From positions 1 to 40,092 of the forward strand of contig QCGF01000008.1 in assembly GCA_003278175.1 (NCBI GenBank): a stretch of 40,092 bases of DNA. The letters run 5' to 3'. This DNA comes from Prochlorococcus sp. AG-363-P15 (lineage in GTDB: Bacteria; Cyanobacteriota; Cyanobacteriia; PCC-6307; Cyanobiaceae). Below the pieces are notes generated by a model. The model made no database searches and was not told the DNA's origin. It was given only the letters and a program-made list of their open reading frames with translations. Of the stretch, positions 30,403-36,475 are shown one piece after another. The position numbers were made by a program, and so were the translations under genes. Each line of letters opens with the position of its first letter. Positions within the stretch are counted from its first letter, which is position 1.

Positions 30403-31785
30403 ATGAGTGCTGCTGAATTGAAAGTTCAAACAAATAACCTAGCTGGCAGCCGCATTGCGGTGACAATAGAGATACCTGCAGAGCGTTGTAAAACTAGTTA
30501 TGAAGAGGCATTATCACGCCTGAGCAAATCTATAAAATTACCTGGCTTCCGCCAAGGGAAAGTTCCAAAACAAGTCATCCTTCAACAAATAGGCACGACA
30601 AGAATCAAAGCAACTGCTTTAGAAGCACTCTTAGAAACAGCTTGGCGAGAGGCAATAAACCAAGAATCCATAGAGCCGCTTTGCGAACCAGATATCAATG
30701 GAGGATTTGAAGCCGTACTTGAAAATTTCAATGCATCAAAAGAATTATCTGTAACTTTAGAAACCGATATAGCTCCAGCTCCGAAATTAAAATCCACAAA
30801 AGGTCTTGAAGCAGAAGCTGAAGTAATTAGTTTTGATCCTGGAAAGGTTGACGAGCTAATAGAACAATCTCGCAAACAACTTGCCACACTGATTCCAGTC
30901 GAGGACAGACCTGCAGCCAAAGGAGATATAGCAGTCGTAAGCTTCAAAGGAACATATGAAGATGGCAATGAAATTGAAGGTGGAAGTTCTGATTCAATGG
31001 ACATTGAATTAGAAGATGGCCAGATGATACCTGGATTTGTAGAAGGCATAATCGGCATGGAGATTAATAAGAAGAAAACAGTAACTTGTCAATTTCCAAA
31101 GGACTATCAAGAAAAGAGTGCTCAAGGTAAGAAAGCAAAGTTTGCAATCACACTTAAAGACTTAAAGACTCGAGAGCTTCCAAAAATAGATGATGAATTT
31201 GCAAAGCAAGCAAGTGACAAATCAACAATCAAAGAACTGAAAGATGATTTAGAAAAGCGTCTACTAGAAGATATTAAAAACCGTAATAAAAGCAATAGAA
31301 AAGAAGCTCTAATAAATTCACTTACAGAACAATTAGAGGTAGACTTGCCTAAAAGCTTGATAGACCAAGAAGTAAGAATCTTAGTTGAACAAACCGCTCA
31401 GAAATTTGCTCAGCAGGGAATGGATGTCAAATCGATGTTTACTCCTGAGCTCGTGAAATCTCTTATGGATTCTTCACAAGAAGATGCAAAAAAGAGTCTT
31501 CGCCGTAAACTTGCCCTCCAAGCACTTGCAGAAGAGGAGAAAATAGAGGTAGACCAAAAAGAACTAGATGCAAAGTTAAAAGAAGTTAAGTCTGAACTGA
31601 AAAATGAGAAAAACATTGACCCACAAAGACTTCACAATGCAATTCGCGAAGACTTATTAGAGGAAAAACTTATAAAGTGGCTTGAAGAAAATAACAATGT
31701 TATTGAACAAAAACAGATTCCCAGTAACAAGCCAAAGCAGACGAGTAAAAAGTCTAATCCCACCAAAACCAAAAAAGAAAAATAA
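30403..31785 (+). CDS. tig: trigger factor (ribosome-associated chaperone)
   Basis: Folding helper at the ribosomal exit tunnel, with peptidyl-prolyl isomerase activity. The 460-aa protein shows the N-terminal ribosome-binding domain with signature GFRQGKVPK (48-56), an FKBP-type domain at about 155-240 (AAKGDIAVVSFKGTYEDG, MIPGFVEGIIGMEI) and the helical C-terminal chaperone domain (about 260-430). The last 20 residues are Lys/Ser/Thr-rich and probably disordered. Followed 95 bp later by clpP and then clpX on the same strand, the tig-clpP-clpX order widespread in bacteria. Confidence 0.97.
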   Translation: MSAAELKVQTNNLAGSRIAVTIEIPAERCKTSYEEALSRLSKSIKLPGFRQGKVPKQVILQQIGTTRIKATALEALLETAWREAINQESIEPLCEPDINGGFEAVLENFNASKELSVTLETDIAPAPKLKSTKGLEAEAEVISFDPGKVDELIEQSRKQLATLIPVEDRPAAKGDIAVVSFKGTYEDGNEIEGGSSDSMDIELEDGQMIPGFVEGIIGMEINKKKTVTCQFPKDYQEKSAQGKKAKFAITLKDLKTRELPKIDDEFAKQASDKSTIKELKDDLEKRLLEDIKNRNKSNRKEALINSLTEQLEVDLPKSLIDQEVRILVEQTAQKFAQQGMDVKSMFTPELVKSLMDSSQEDAKKSLRRKLALQALAEEEKIEVDQKELDAKLKEVKSELKNEKNIDPQRLHNAIREDLLEEKLIKWLEENNNVIEQKQIPSNKPKQTSKKSNPTKTKKEK

Positions 31786-31880: not shown

Positions 31881-32534
31881 GTGATTAACGCTATAAGTCC
31901 ACACCCAATTAATAATGAATGGCTTGGCTCTCGGCCCAAGTCATCTACAGGGGTTCTCCCCACAGTCATTGAGCAATCAGGCCGAGGAGATCGCTCGTTT
32001 GATATTTACTCTCGATTACTGCGAGAGCGAATCATATTCCTAGGCACTGATGTAAATGATCAAGTAGCAGATTCCCTAGTAGCTCAAATGCTTTTCTTAG
32101 AAGCAGAAGACCCAGAAAAAGATATCCAAATTTATATCAATTCCCCTGGGGGTTCAGTAACAGCAGGTTTGGCTATTTACGACACAATGCAGCAAGTCAG
32201 TCCTGACGTAGTAACGATTTGCTATGGACTAGCAGCAAGCATGGGAGCCTTTCTGCTTTCAGGTGGCTCAAAAGGCAAAAGACTTGCTCTGCCAAATTCA
32301 AGAATAATGATCCATCAACCCTTAGGAGGAGCACAAGGACAAGCAGTGGAAATCGAAATTCAAGCCAAAGAAATTCTGTATCTTAAAGATACACTCAACC
32401 AACTCATATCAGAACACACTGGACAAGCAATAGAAAAAATTGCTGAAGACACTGATAGAGACCATTTCCTTTCTCCTCAAGAAGCGGTTGAATACGGCCT
32501 AATTGACAAAGTTGTTGACAGTCTTAAACATTGA
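31881..32534 (+). CDS. clpP: ATP-dependent Clp protease proteolytic subunit
   Basis: Serine peptidase that forms the tetradecameric chamber and works here with ClpX. The 217-aa protein has the catalytic triad in family context: Ser120 ([12 protein letters not shown]), His145 ([10 protein letters not shown]) and Asp194 ([10 protein letters not shown]), with [20 protein letters not shown] for subunit packing. The N-terminal 25 residues are a propeptide-like extension before [21 protein letters not shown]. Start is a GTG at 31881. Cyanobacteria carry several ClpP/ClpR paralogues; the one linked to clpX is usually called clpP2, which fits this position. Confidence 0.97.
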
Positions 32535-32644: not shown

Positions 32645-34003
32645 ATGGCAAAATTTGACGCCCATCTAAAGTGCTCCTTTTGTGGCAAGTCACAAGAACA
32701 AGTACGAAAATTAATCGCAGGCCCTGGGGTATATATCTGTGATGAATGCATAGATCTATGCAATGAGATCTTGGATGAAGAGCTCTTAGATAGTCAAGGC
32801 AACACTAGACAAAGCAATGAAGTCAATCGCAAAAGTACAACGGCAACACGTAATAGTGGGAAACCAGCACCAACACTAGCCTCAATCCCTAAGCCCTTAG
32901 AGATCAAAACTTTCCTGGATAATCAAGTAGTTGGACAAGAAGCAGCTAAAAAAATCCTTTCAGTCGCAGTGTATAACCACTACAAAAGACTTGCCTGGCA
33001 AGGAGATGGAAAAGGCGAAGCTGACCAAACAGCAACCAAATTGCACAAATCAAATATATTATTAATTGGACCAACTGGTTGTGGCAAAACACTTCTTGCT
33101 CAAACCCTCGCAGAGCTGTTAGATGTTCCCTTTGCAGTTGCTGATGCAACCACATTAACCGAAGCAGGTTATGTAGGTGAAGATGTAGAGAACATCCTTC
33201 TACGGCTTCTGCAGAAAGCAGATATGGATGTAGATCTTGCCCAAAGAGGGATTATTTATATTGATGAAATAGATAAAATTGCTCGAAAAAGCGAAAACCC
33301 ATCAATTACACGTGACGTATCTGGCGAAGGAGTTCAACAAGCTTTACTAAAAATGCTGGAAGGAACTGTTGCAAATGTACCCCCACAAGGAGGGCGGAAA
33401 CACCCATATCACGATTGCATTCAAATCGATACAAGCCAAATACTTTTTATATGTGGCGGAGCCTTTGTTGGCCTCGAGGATGTAATTCAAAAAAGATTGG
33501 GCCGTAATTCCATAGGTTTCATGCAAACAGATAATCGAGGGAAAAACCTTGTCAATCGAGATTTAAAAACACATGAAGTGCTTCATCACCTGGAGCCAGA
33601 TGATCTAGTGCGCTATGGCCTAATTCCAGAATTTATTGGACGAATACCAGTTAGTGCGGTCCTTGACCCCCTCGATGCCGAGGCTTTGGAATCAATCCTT
33701 ACCGAACCAAGAGATGCACTTGTTAAACAATTCAAAACCCTACTCAGTATGGATAATGTAGAACTCGAATTTGAAAATAAAGCTGTTAAAGCTATTGCGC
33801 AAGAAGCTCACCGTCGCAAAACTGGCGCAAGAGCTTTAAGAGGAATTGTTGAAGAGTTAATGCTTGAACTAATGTATGACCTTCCATCAAAGAAAAACAT
33901 AAAGAGTTTCACTATTACCCGAGCAATGGTTGATGACCACACTGGGGGCAAGGTATTAGAACTTCCTTCAAATGAGGAGCGATCTGAACAAAAGCCTGCT
34001 TAA
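32645..34003 (+). CDS. clpX: ATP-dependent Clp protease ATP-binding subunit ClpX
   Basis: AAA+ unfoldase that feeds tagged proteins to ClpP. The 452-aa protein has an N-terminal zinc domain with Cys10, Cys13, Cys32 and Cys35 ([17 protein letters not shown]), a variable linker (about 45-80), Walker A GPTGCGKT (142-149), pore loop GYVGEDVE (175-182), Walker [10 protein letters not shown] (203-211), and the sensor 2 block [15 protein letters not shown]. The IGF-type loop for docking ClpP appears as [10 protein letters not shown] (about 290). Three bases separate its stop from the ATG of the LRAT-like gene, implying co-translation. Confidence 0.98.
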
Positions 34004-34006
34004 TTA

Positions 34007-34684
34007 ATGGCTGCAGCTGATCACCTAAAGGTTCTTAGACAACATGGTCTTTTCACGCATCATGGAATCGATTTAGGTGATGGAACAGTGGCTCATTATT
34101 TAGAAGGAAAAGCAATCATTAGAAGTTCAATTAAAGAATTTTGTAAAGGCCAGATTTTTAGTGTTGTGACTCATGAAAATGCATCACCAAATGGGGTCAC
34201 TTTGCGTCGAGCAATGAACCGTCTTGGAGAGCAAAGGTATAATTTACTGTTCAATAATTGTGAGCATTTTGCAACCTGGTGCAAAACGGGGACACATCGC
34301 AGCAATCAAATGGAAGACTGGTTGAAAAATGGCAGTCTTAGCTCCATAGCAATAGGTCAATTAATGCCAGCAGCACTATTTACAGGGTTAAATCTTTTAT
34401 TAAAAAAAGGACTTGCCGATGAAGCTTCTAGGAACAAAGCTAAGCAAGCAATCAAAAACCTTGAAAAATTAAGAAAAGCAATAACTTATAAACTCGAGTC
34501 CACATTAGAAGAAGTCGAAAGCTGGCTAAACAAAGACTCACAAACAAATAACAGCCAAGGTTCAAATCAAATTTCCCAATCACTTCTTCTCAAAGGGCAA
34601 GCTCTTGCAGATCAATTGAATGGTATAGAAAATGTTGAAGCTGAAATTACTAGTCTCCTTAACACAACAAACCCTAAAAAATGA
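34007..34684 (+). CDS. LRAT-like (NlpC/P60 superfamily) Cys-hydrolase/acyltransferase, function unknown
   Basis: 225-aa protein resembling the LRAT/H-rev107 group of permuted papain-like enzymes, which move or remove acyl groups from lipids. The N-terminal part has LFTHHGIDLGDGTVAHY (candidate catalytic His18/19 and His30), and the core FNNCEHFATWCKTG at about 82-95 with candidate nucleophile Cys85, the hallmark NCEHF. Residues about 112-132 (SIAIGQLMPAALFTGLNLLL) form a hydrophobic segment, as in family members that anchor to membranes. The remaining C-terminal third is polar and helical. It starts three bases after clpX and ends 27 bp before dnaX, so it belongs to that transcription unit. 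Substrate unknown; lipid or lipoprotein acylation would be inference. Confidence 0.75.
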   Translation: MAAADHLKVLRQHGLFTHHGIDLGDGTVAHYLEGKAIIRSSIKEFCKGQIFSVVTHENASPNGVTLRRAMNRLGEQRYNLLFNNCEHFATWCKTGTHRSNQMEDWLKNGSLSSIAIGQLMPAALFTGLNLLLKKGLADEASRNKAKQAIKNLEKLRKAITYKLESTLEEVESWLNKDSQTNNSQGSNQISQSLLLKGQALADQLNGIENVEAEITSLLNTTNPKK

Positions 34685-34711: not shown

Positions 34712-36475
34712 ATGAGCAAGGCATACCAGCCGCTGCACCACAAATACAGACCAAAACGCTTCGACGATCTAGTTGGTCAACAAAGCATCGCGGCCACCCT
34801 TAAACAAGCACTCATTACAAATCGGATAGCACCCGCATATCTCTTCAGTGGACCACGTGGCACAGGGAAAACCTCAAGTGCAAGAATCCTTGCTCGATCA
34901 CTAAATTGTCAATCAAGCAAAAATCCCACTCCAGAACCCTGTGGGCAATGTGAAATCTGCAAAACGATTTCTTTAGGGACATCATTAGACGTAATAGAAA
35001 TAGATGCCGCTTCAAATACGGGAGTCGACAATATCCGGGAGCTCATTGAAAGATCAAGGTTTGCCCCTGTTCAAGCAAGGTGGAAAGTTTATGTAATAGA
35101 TGAATGCCATATGCTTTCAACTGCAGCCTTCAACGCTCTATTAAAAACCTTAGAAGAGCCTCCTGAAAAAGTCGTATTTGTCTTGGCAACTACAGATCCT
35201 CAGCGTGTTCTACCAACAATTCTGAGCCGTTGCCAATGCTTTGACTTTCGAAGAATTCCAATCAAAGAAATAAGTAAGCATCTCCAAATGATCTCTACTC
35301 AAGAGGAGATTTCTATTGAAACTAAGGCCTTAGATTTAGTTGCACAAAGAGCTCAAGGTGGATTAAGGGATGCCGAAAGTATGCTCGACCAATTAAGCCT
35401 TCTACCTCAACCAATCAAAATCGAATCAGTCTGGGATTTGTTAGGCGCTATTCCTGAGGAAGAACTAATAACACTAACTAATGCCTTAAGCAATAAAGAC
35501 CCAATCACACTTTTGGAAACTTGCCGCACACTTCTTGATCAGGGAAGGGATCCACTACCTGTGCTTCAAGGGTTGGCATCGATACTTAGAGATCTAGTAC
35601 TTCTCAAAGCAGCACCCAATCGCCATGATCTAACCAGTTTTTCCAATGAATTAAATGAACAATTAGGAGAATTAGCAAACAGTTTAGAAATAGAAAAACT
35701 CTTTCAATGGCAAGCAAGATTAAAAGGTACAGAATATCAACTTCGTCAAAGCAATCAACCACGTCTCTGGCTAGAAGTTTTGCTCCTAGGCCTTCTCTCA
35801 GAGAATCATGTTAAAGAAGTAAGCGGTCAAAAAATTAAAACTCTTCCGACGGAGTTTTTGTCTTCAAGTAAGAAGCAAGTACTCGAGGATAAATCAGAAA
35901 GTTTCAAGTCAGAAGACAAAACTTCTGAAACAAAGCCAATCATCAAAGATGATCTAAGTACACCCAACCTTGAATCAAAAGAAAATTTATCAGATTTATG
36001 GCGACAAATTCTTGGAAAGCTTGAACTGCCTTCAACAAGAATGCTCCTATCACAGCAAGCCAAGCTTGTGAGCTTAACTGCATCCAAAGTGGTTGTAGAA
36101 GTATCATCTAACTGGATAGGCATGGTTCAAAGCCGAGTCAGCCTTATAGAAACCGCAATCAATGAAACATTAGGTGGAAATAGAAAGCTATTGCTTGAGA
36201 GCACACTAGAAAAAAGTTTCAGCAATTCACAAGACGTTAGGTCAATATCAACTAATCAGACAGTAGATGAAGATTTAGAAAGTGATAAAAAAGTTCAATC
36301 GAATTTATCTATACAAAAATCTTCTACTTCCATCCCTAAAAAAGAAAAAGAGTCAGACTTAATTCAAGAAAAGCCTGCCATTAACAATGTGCCCCATAAT
36401 GACGAGGAAATTGATAACAAGGCAAAAAACCTTGCTGAATTCTTTAATGGAAAAGTTTTAGATATAGAAATCTGA
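34712..36475 (+). CDS. dnaX: DNA polymerase III subunit tau/gamma
   Basis: Clamp-loader ATPase that links polymerase cores. The 587-aa protein has HHKYRPKRFDDLVGQ, Walker A GPRGTGKT (47-54), a four-Cys zinc module (Cys66, 77, 80, 83), Walker B YVIDECHML, sensor 1 LATTDPQRVLPTILSRCQCF and sensor 2 GGLRDAESMLDQL. Residues beyond 370 are low-complexity, then a domain III/V-like LWRQILGKLELPSTRML block, ending in another charged tail. I see no clear programmed frameshift signal for a short gamma form. The gene follows the LRAT-like gene and is convergent with the glycosyltransferase (12 bp between stops). Confidence 0.96.
   Translation: MSKAYQPLHHKYRPKRFDDLVGQQSIAATLKQALITNRIAPAYLFSGPRGTGKTSSARILARSLNCQSSKNPTPEPCGQCEICKTISLGTSLDVIEIDAASNTGVDNIRELIERSRFAPVQARWKVYVIDECHMLSTAAFNALLKTLEEPPEKVVFVLATTDPQRVLPTILSRCQCFDFRRIPIKEISKHLQMISTQEEISIETKALDLVAQRAQGGLRDAESMLDQLSLLPQPIKIESVWDLLGAIPEEELITLTNALSNKDPITLLETCRTLLDQGRDPLPVLQGLASILRDLVLLKAAPNRHDLTSFSNELNEQLGELANSLEIEKLFQWQARLKGTEYQLRQSNQPRLWLEVLLLGLLSENHVKEVSGQKIKTLPTEFLSSSKKQVLEDKSESFKSEDKTSETKPIIKDDLSTPNLESKENLSDLWRQILGKLELPSTRMLLSQQAKLVSLTASKVVVEVSSNWIGMVQSRVSLIETAINETLGGNRKLLLESTLEKSFSNSQDVRSISTNQTVDEDLESDKKVQSNLSIQKSSTSIPKKEKESDLIQEKPAINNVPHNDEEIDNKAKNLAEFFNGKVLDIEI

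Follow-up and report, generated by a model that had tools for sequence, protein, structure and literature searches.

Introduction

The human PLAAT/HRASLS proteins (viz. PLAAT3, PDB 4dot, and HRASLS2, PDB 4dpz) are the closest described counterparts of the protein considered in this work, with which they share the LRAT fold, the NCEHF motif and two upstream histidines, and a hydrophobic segment follows the domain, although that of the cyanobacterial protein is borderline as a membrane anchor. In the PLAAT proteins, the two histidines and the cysteine are catalytic, and the reaction proceeds via an acyl-thioester. The cyanobacterial protein, which is about 20% identical to the human PLAATs, differs from them in having a predicted two-helix hairpin behind the hydrophobic segment, and the membrane lipids that it is expected to encounter also differ; cyanobacteria generally contain PG, galactolipids and sulfolipids rather than phosphatidylcholine.

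A second described system is provided by Vipp1/IM30 and PspA, the bacterial ESCRT-III proteins, whose hairpin is common to the LRAT relatives from other cyanobacterial families. The first helix and the later part of Vipp1 are unmatched in those relatives, whereas in the family to which our protein belongs (the window's family) only what appears to be a diverged hairpin is left. A cyanobacterial fusion of PspA_IM30 with an NlpC/P60 (LRAT) domain, AFZ52345.1, is recorded in one sentence of Ravi et al. (2024, PMC11237479). As described in that sentence, this fusion has the same enzyme type and the same tail as 38 relatives analyzed here and its identity with them is likely, whereas the window's family is without a detectable PspA signature and its gene sits between clpX and dnaX. 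A statement in Schlosser et al. (2025, PMC12636044) holds that the alpha1-3 hairpin of IM30 binds membranes by itself, and a passage in PMC9338259 describes PLAAT3 as being drawn to damaged membranes.

Except for the above sentence in PMC11237479, no paper dealing with the cyanobacterial gene itself was found in a search that covered main texts and few of the subscription papers, and the terms 'lecithin', 'PspA', 'clpX' and 'NC domain' do not occur in the main text of the Synechococcus elongatus tagging study (PMC11804935), which is the part of that source considered. Proteins with the LRAT fold and fusions to PspA are of kinds already described; the family-wide position between clpX and dnaX, the missing PspA signature in this family and the intermediate gene order described below were not met in the literature searched, within the same scope.

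Results and discussion

The LRAT gene and its surroundings

The window (i.e. the whole stretch of 40,092 nucleotides that was analyzed; G+C 41%) is from an assembly of 1.1 Mb in 65 contigs, which is 57% complete and contains one LRAT match. The genes tig, clpP, clpX, the LRAT gene and dnaX form a row in the window, all on the + strand, with a spacing of 3 bases between clpX and the LRAT gene and of 27 bases between the latter and dnaX. The features of relevance to this work are as follows:

34007..34684, + strand: LRAT-domain protein of 225 aa (ATG start, open reading frame; Pfam LRAT 76.8 bits; orthologues)
34013..34297, + strand: LRAT domain, predicted to be catalytic, residues 3-97 (Pfam range, PLAAT3 profile alignment, fold match with Z 14.8, motif in 142/142)
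34058-34060, 34094-34096 and 34259-34261, + strand: codons for His18, His30 and Cys85, respectively, within the LRAT domain
34346..34402, + strand: hydrophobic stretch at residues 114-132 that may serve as a membrane anchor (mean Kyte-Doolittle 1.67; low model confidence at 111-117)
34421..34666, + strand: predicted two-helix hairpin, residues 139-220, occupying the site of the PspA/Vipp1 hairpin of the relatives (model helices; profile comparison probability 70%)
32645..34003, + strand: clpX, upstream neighbour (NCBIfam TIGR00382)
34712..36475, + strand: dnaX, downstream neighbour (NCBIfam NF011510)
31881..32534, + strand: clpP, same gene row (Pfam CLP_protease)
30403..31785, + strand: tig (trigger factor), same gene row (Pfam Trigger_N, Trigger_C and FKBP_C)

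From the spacing of these genes, the LRAT gene may be supposed to be co-expressed with those for ClpXP.

Membership in the LRAT family and conservation of the predicted active-site residues

The window protein is a member of the LRAT family and it has the LRAT/PLAAT fold. Its match to the Pfam model LRAT (PF04970), at 76.8 bits, is above the cut-off of 24.3 bits (E = 2.2e-21), and no NCBIfam model matches it at that model's cut-off. Human HRASLS2 was matched at 2.4e-4 in a single-sequence comparison against solved structures, and PLAAT3 at about 1e-9 when a profile from an alignment of 62 cyanobacterial proteins was used. The AlphaFold model of the protein (62 sequences, mean pLDDT 83.9, pTM 0.57) matched HRASLS3/PLAAT3 with a Foldseek E of 1.3e-5 and a TM of 0.81 on the target, and its superposition on human PLAAT3 covered 94 residues with an rmsd of 2.1 Å.

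The sequence NNCEHF, which includes Cys85, occupies residues 83-88 of the window protein, and His18, His19 and His30 are located upstream of it. In the profile alignment to PLAAT3, His18, His30 and Cys85 align with the His, His and Cys of the PLAATs, and this pattern is retained in all 142 distinct relatives (77 from the family and 65 others), a count that omits the paralogues L075 and L076 (unmatched by the window protein) and L077 (matched), as well as the contig-cut fragment L108. The gene is also under purifying selection, the median dN/dS values in three groups of the family being 0.10-0.13 for the LRAT part and 0.15-0.35 for the C-terminal part, with some pairs near saturation. In the group that includes the window, these values are 0.10 and 0.35, respectively, i.e. 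the LRAT part is more constrained than the tail. The hydrophobic stretch at residues 114-132 is the best one in the protein and it is borderline for a membrane helix; the pLDDT of the model is <50 at residues 111-117, and within the family the hydrophobic score ranges from 0.51 to 2.1, with several members being low.

Due to the Pfam match, the low dN/dS and the presence of orthologues in 6 of the 7 same-genus genomes (the seventh is 55% complete), this gene is not a chance open reading frame. The original prediction had named absence from close relatives as evidence against it, and the orthologues show that the gene is present in six of these seven. It had also described an open reading frame starting three bases after clpX, an assignment to the LRAT/H-rev group, a candidate Cys85 in an NCEHF context with upstream histidines, and a hydrophobic segment, and all of these are borne out, the segment as a feature that is present and of borderline hydrophobicity.

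The LRAT fold is also seen in NDUEG7, a subunit of the respiratory complex I of Euglena gracilis (PDB 8iuf chain E7; Z 12.8, 113 residues), indicating that it was recruited into an organelle complex as well. Separately, some cyanobacteria harbor an additional LRAT-domain match, which is shorter and less closely related (L075, L076, L077), and relatives of the domain are encoded on 27 contigs of a viral collection (L204-L230), where either a phage gene or a host flank is possible; the match in L204 is full-length, at 41%, and lies near the contig end.

Comparison of the C-terminal tail with the PspA/Vipp1 hairpin

Both LRAT and PspA_IM30 matches are found in 38/38 relatives from other cyanobacterial families (alignment A3, E <0.001), and the ten proteins of another comparison likewise match both, 4 of them over the curated PspA_IM30 (PF04012) cut-off. 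A Planktothrix relative (L140) also has the PspA fusion. A single search with the profile of the 38 relatives gave Vipp1/PspA chains (1e-10) as well as PLAAT chains (1e-8), whereas no unrelated chain scored better than 0.0027. The matched piece corresponds to Vipp1 residues 23-127, and the hairpin of the relatives includes a Trp and an ARxALxRK-like stretch. The model of one of the 38, L122 (mean pLDDT 85.5), matches PLAAT at an E of 1e-6 and it also matches the hairpins of Vipp1/PspA/Snf7, at E values of 0.008 and above with a probability of 1.00.

The window protein shows no match to PspA_IM30 at E up to 1, and this domain is absent among the matches listed for 35 proteins of its family (25 of the 38 families listed). 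Similarly, a search with the profile of the family retrieves PLAAT, but even at an E limit of 10 it retrieves none of the Vipp1/PspA chains. However, the model of the window protein contains two long helices, at residues 139-177 and 186-220, and in profile comparisons the tail of the family is colinear with the PspA-like tails (E 4e-5). From these comparisons, a common descent of this tail with the PspA-type tails is plausible; as the signature is absent and the descent is plausible but unproven, the window protein is kept out of the PspA class.

Distribution of the LRAT gene and its losses

Among 59 genomes related to that of the window (own genome excluded), 40 have a match to the gene, comprising 27/36 from the same family and 13/23 from other cyanobacterial families. 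Synechococcus elongatus, taken as a control, has an LRAT match as well. At the level of the order, a profile search detected LRAT in 146 of 299 genomes, in 145 of them over the cut-off. Genome G021, where the end of the gene is at a contig edge, is counted as present in the survey of relatives and as absent in the order-wide profile search, which is a miscount. Three LRAT-less draft genomes (G006, G013 and G035) are also without a true clpX match and because of this they are uninformative on the absence of LRAT. Three changes in the presence of the gene are needed on a ClpX tree of 67 rows, viz. one basal to a clade of ten streamlined rows, one in a pair and one in a long-branched row; many forks of this tree are weak, and it excludes four duplicate loci as well as ten genomes from other families that are without LRAT. 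G015 forms a very long branch in this tree.

Both LRAT and PspA_IM30 are present in 141 of the 299 genomes, LRAT only in 5 (G000, G004, G092, G267 and G322), PspA_IM30 only in 40 (G021 being wrongly among them), and neither in 113. The co-loss of LRAT with Vipp1 was considered as evidence of a shared pathway and set aside, as 40 genomes keep Vipp1 without LRAT; further, Vipp1 is missing from 2 of 35 genera, which represents few events, and due to this the co-loss proves little. Among the streamlined genomes of the family, complete genomes of two genera (e.g. G017, G024 and G063) are without both PspA_IM30 (Vipp1) and LRAT. In G064, the only PspA_IM30 match of the genome (C1:1589983-1590330) covers half of the profile and contains an internal TAG, as if Vipp1 were decaying there.

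Gene order and the proposed link to ClpXP

In the window's family, clpX is located upstream on the same strand at 77/77 distinct loci (median gap 10 bases; <=120 bases in 74), and dnaX is located downstream at 75 of these (within 120 bases in 73); in the two loci without dnaX, L172 and L198, the locus ends 1 and 2 bases past the gene piece read, respectively. In those family genomes without LRAT in which clpX was located, clpX adjoins dnaX and nothing of this kind lies between them (13 loci: L078-L089 and L100). In contrast, outside the family clpX is within the stretch read at only 4 of 64 loci (L109, L110, L120 and L121), and neither clpX nor dnaX is within it at 60 of the 64, a sample in which one contig is counted twice (L112 and L123). 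The neighbours at these other loci are mixed, the commonest being an alpha/beta hydrolase, which adjoins the gene at 7/64 loci (four checked in Pfam). At three of the four loci with clpX outside the window's family, viz. those where the interval was read, clpX and the LRAT gene are separated by an alpha/beta hydrolase gene, at the following locations:

L109:6982-7824
L110:4943-5995
L121:4964-5872

A survey of clpX-dnaX intervals had been proposed in order to see whether the gene is fixed there, and its outcome is divided: where the gene is present in the family it is fixed behind clpX, but about half of the order is without it. The suggestion that the protein is a partner in ClpXP proteolysis is not supported, as clpX and dnaX are missing from the stretch read at most loci outside the family and abut each other where the gene was lost. 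If the gene were tied to clpX, the two should occur together wherever the gene is found, but this fails outside the family, and because clpX is found there at so few loci nothing beyond the position of the gene supports its linkage in function to ClpXP. On this basis the ClpXP partnership was set aside, the arrangement with clpX not being retained in other families. The slot that the gene occupies behind clpX and ahead of dnaX is old and shared by the whole family, and this operon position probably provides steady expression rather than reflecting a function with ClpXP.

A possible evolutionary path

In most other cyanobacteria LRAT and the hairpin are present and a hydrophobic linker is lacking, the best score over 19 residues not exceeding 1.03. 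Seven distinct lineages, L109, L110, L120 and L121 among them, also have a hydrophobic linker (1.77-1.97). In a tree of the LRAT domain (103 rows, few columns), the window's family forms one branch with a support of 99, and G046, which has the hydrophobic-linker form, is placed next to this branch with a support of 90. The linker lineages, their clpX neighbours and the position of G046 suggest that the fusion occurred first, followed by the gain of the linker, the placement behind clpX, the loss of the hydrolase from between the two genes, and lastly the decay of the PspA signature.

Proposed function of the LRAT protein and alternative explanations

We consider it somewhat better than an even prospect that the window protein is a membrane-docked, LRAT/PLAAT-like thiol acyl hydrolase or acyltransferase that acts on glycerolipids. 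In such an enzyme, His18 would activate Cys85 with the assistance of His30, Cys85 would remove an acyl chain from a glycerolipid of the membrane and carry it as a thioester, and the chain would then be released by water, as in a phospholipase A, or handed to an acceptor, as in an acyltransferase. The protein would be retained on the membrane by the hydrophobic segment together with the two-helix hairpin at its C-terminus; in other cyanobacteria a PspA/Vipp1-type hairpin would serve in that place, of which the window's family would have a diverged version. We infer the catalysis, the lipid substrate, the membrane docking and the meaning of the operon position alike, and docking by the hairpin is suggested by analogy, as the PspA signature is undetectable in the window's own family. 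The fusion of PspA/Vipp1 hairpins to the same enzyme elsewhere points to membranes, not to proteolysis. Counted against the glycerolipid reading are the absence of the gene from about half of the genomes of the order and the low hydrophobic score of several family members.

The substrate of the enzyme could instead be a small acyl compound or ester (e.g. a carotenoid, phytol or quinone ester) and not bulk glycerolipids, which we regard as improbable: the substrate does not follow from membership in the family alone, and LRAT itself esterifies retinol, but it is the PLAAT phospholipases that give the best matches in both fold and sequence, and the relatives are fused to a membrane-surface hairpin.

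A protein-directed thiol hydrolase (an isopeptidase or protein deacylase, PPPDE-like) working with ClpXP would agree with the location of clpX directly upstream at every family locus, and weak matches to the PPPDE peptidases (PF05903, Peptidase_C97) cover the LRAT region in 35/35 proteins of the family when E values of up to 1 are admitted. However, the window protein scores 16 bits against this model, below the cut-off of 29.2 and in contrast to its score for LRAT; clpX is also not in the stretch read at 60 of the 64 outside loci and it remains intact where the LRAT gene was lost, and this explanation is thus quite improbable.

A similarly low probability applies to a non-catalytic membrane adaptor in which the LRAT fold is kept for binding only. 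The Euglena complex I subunit, although possibly itself catalytic, indicates that a structural context is open to this fold, but the invariance of the His/His/Cys pattern and the stronger constraint on the LRAT part than on the tail in the window's group argue against it.

LRAT is a branch of the NlpC/P60 superfamily, which counts in favour of a cell-wall peptidase. Such a peptidase is nevertheless very improbable, since, although the fusion partner is named NlpC/P60 in the sentence of Ravi et al. (PMC11237479), Pfam gives LRAT and, within an E limit of 0.1, does not give NLPC_P60, the closest folds are those of the PLAATs, and the N-terminus is without an apparent export signal (by eye).

Returning to the membrane-docked glycerolipid enzyme, the joining of the same enzyme elsewhere to a part of a membrane-repair protein raises the possibility that the LRAT protein may tend stressed membranes. 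In a bolder form of this proposal, which is doubtful as it stands, it would be a cyanobacterial membrane-damage lipase and a bacterial counterpart of PLAAT3, the latter being recruited to organelle membranes that are damaged. An ESCRT-III-type hairpin (PspA/Vipp1) would direct the LRAT enzyme to thylakoid or plasma membranes under stress, where it could co-assemble with Vipp1 and deacylate or transacylate damaged glycerolipids; in the window's family, its own anchor would have taken the place of the hairpin steering and the gene would have moved into the clpX operon. If this is correct, it would provide a tractable bacterial system in which a lipase of the PLAAT type acts on one membrane together with an ESCRT-III hairpin. 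The clean losses in the streamlined relatives offer natural comparison strains. Further, it would be the first role for a protein present in more than half of the sampled genomes of other cyanobacterial families, and the turnover of lipids would thereby be connected with the maintenance of thylakoids.
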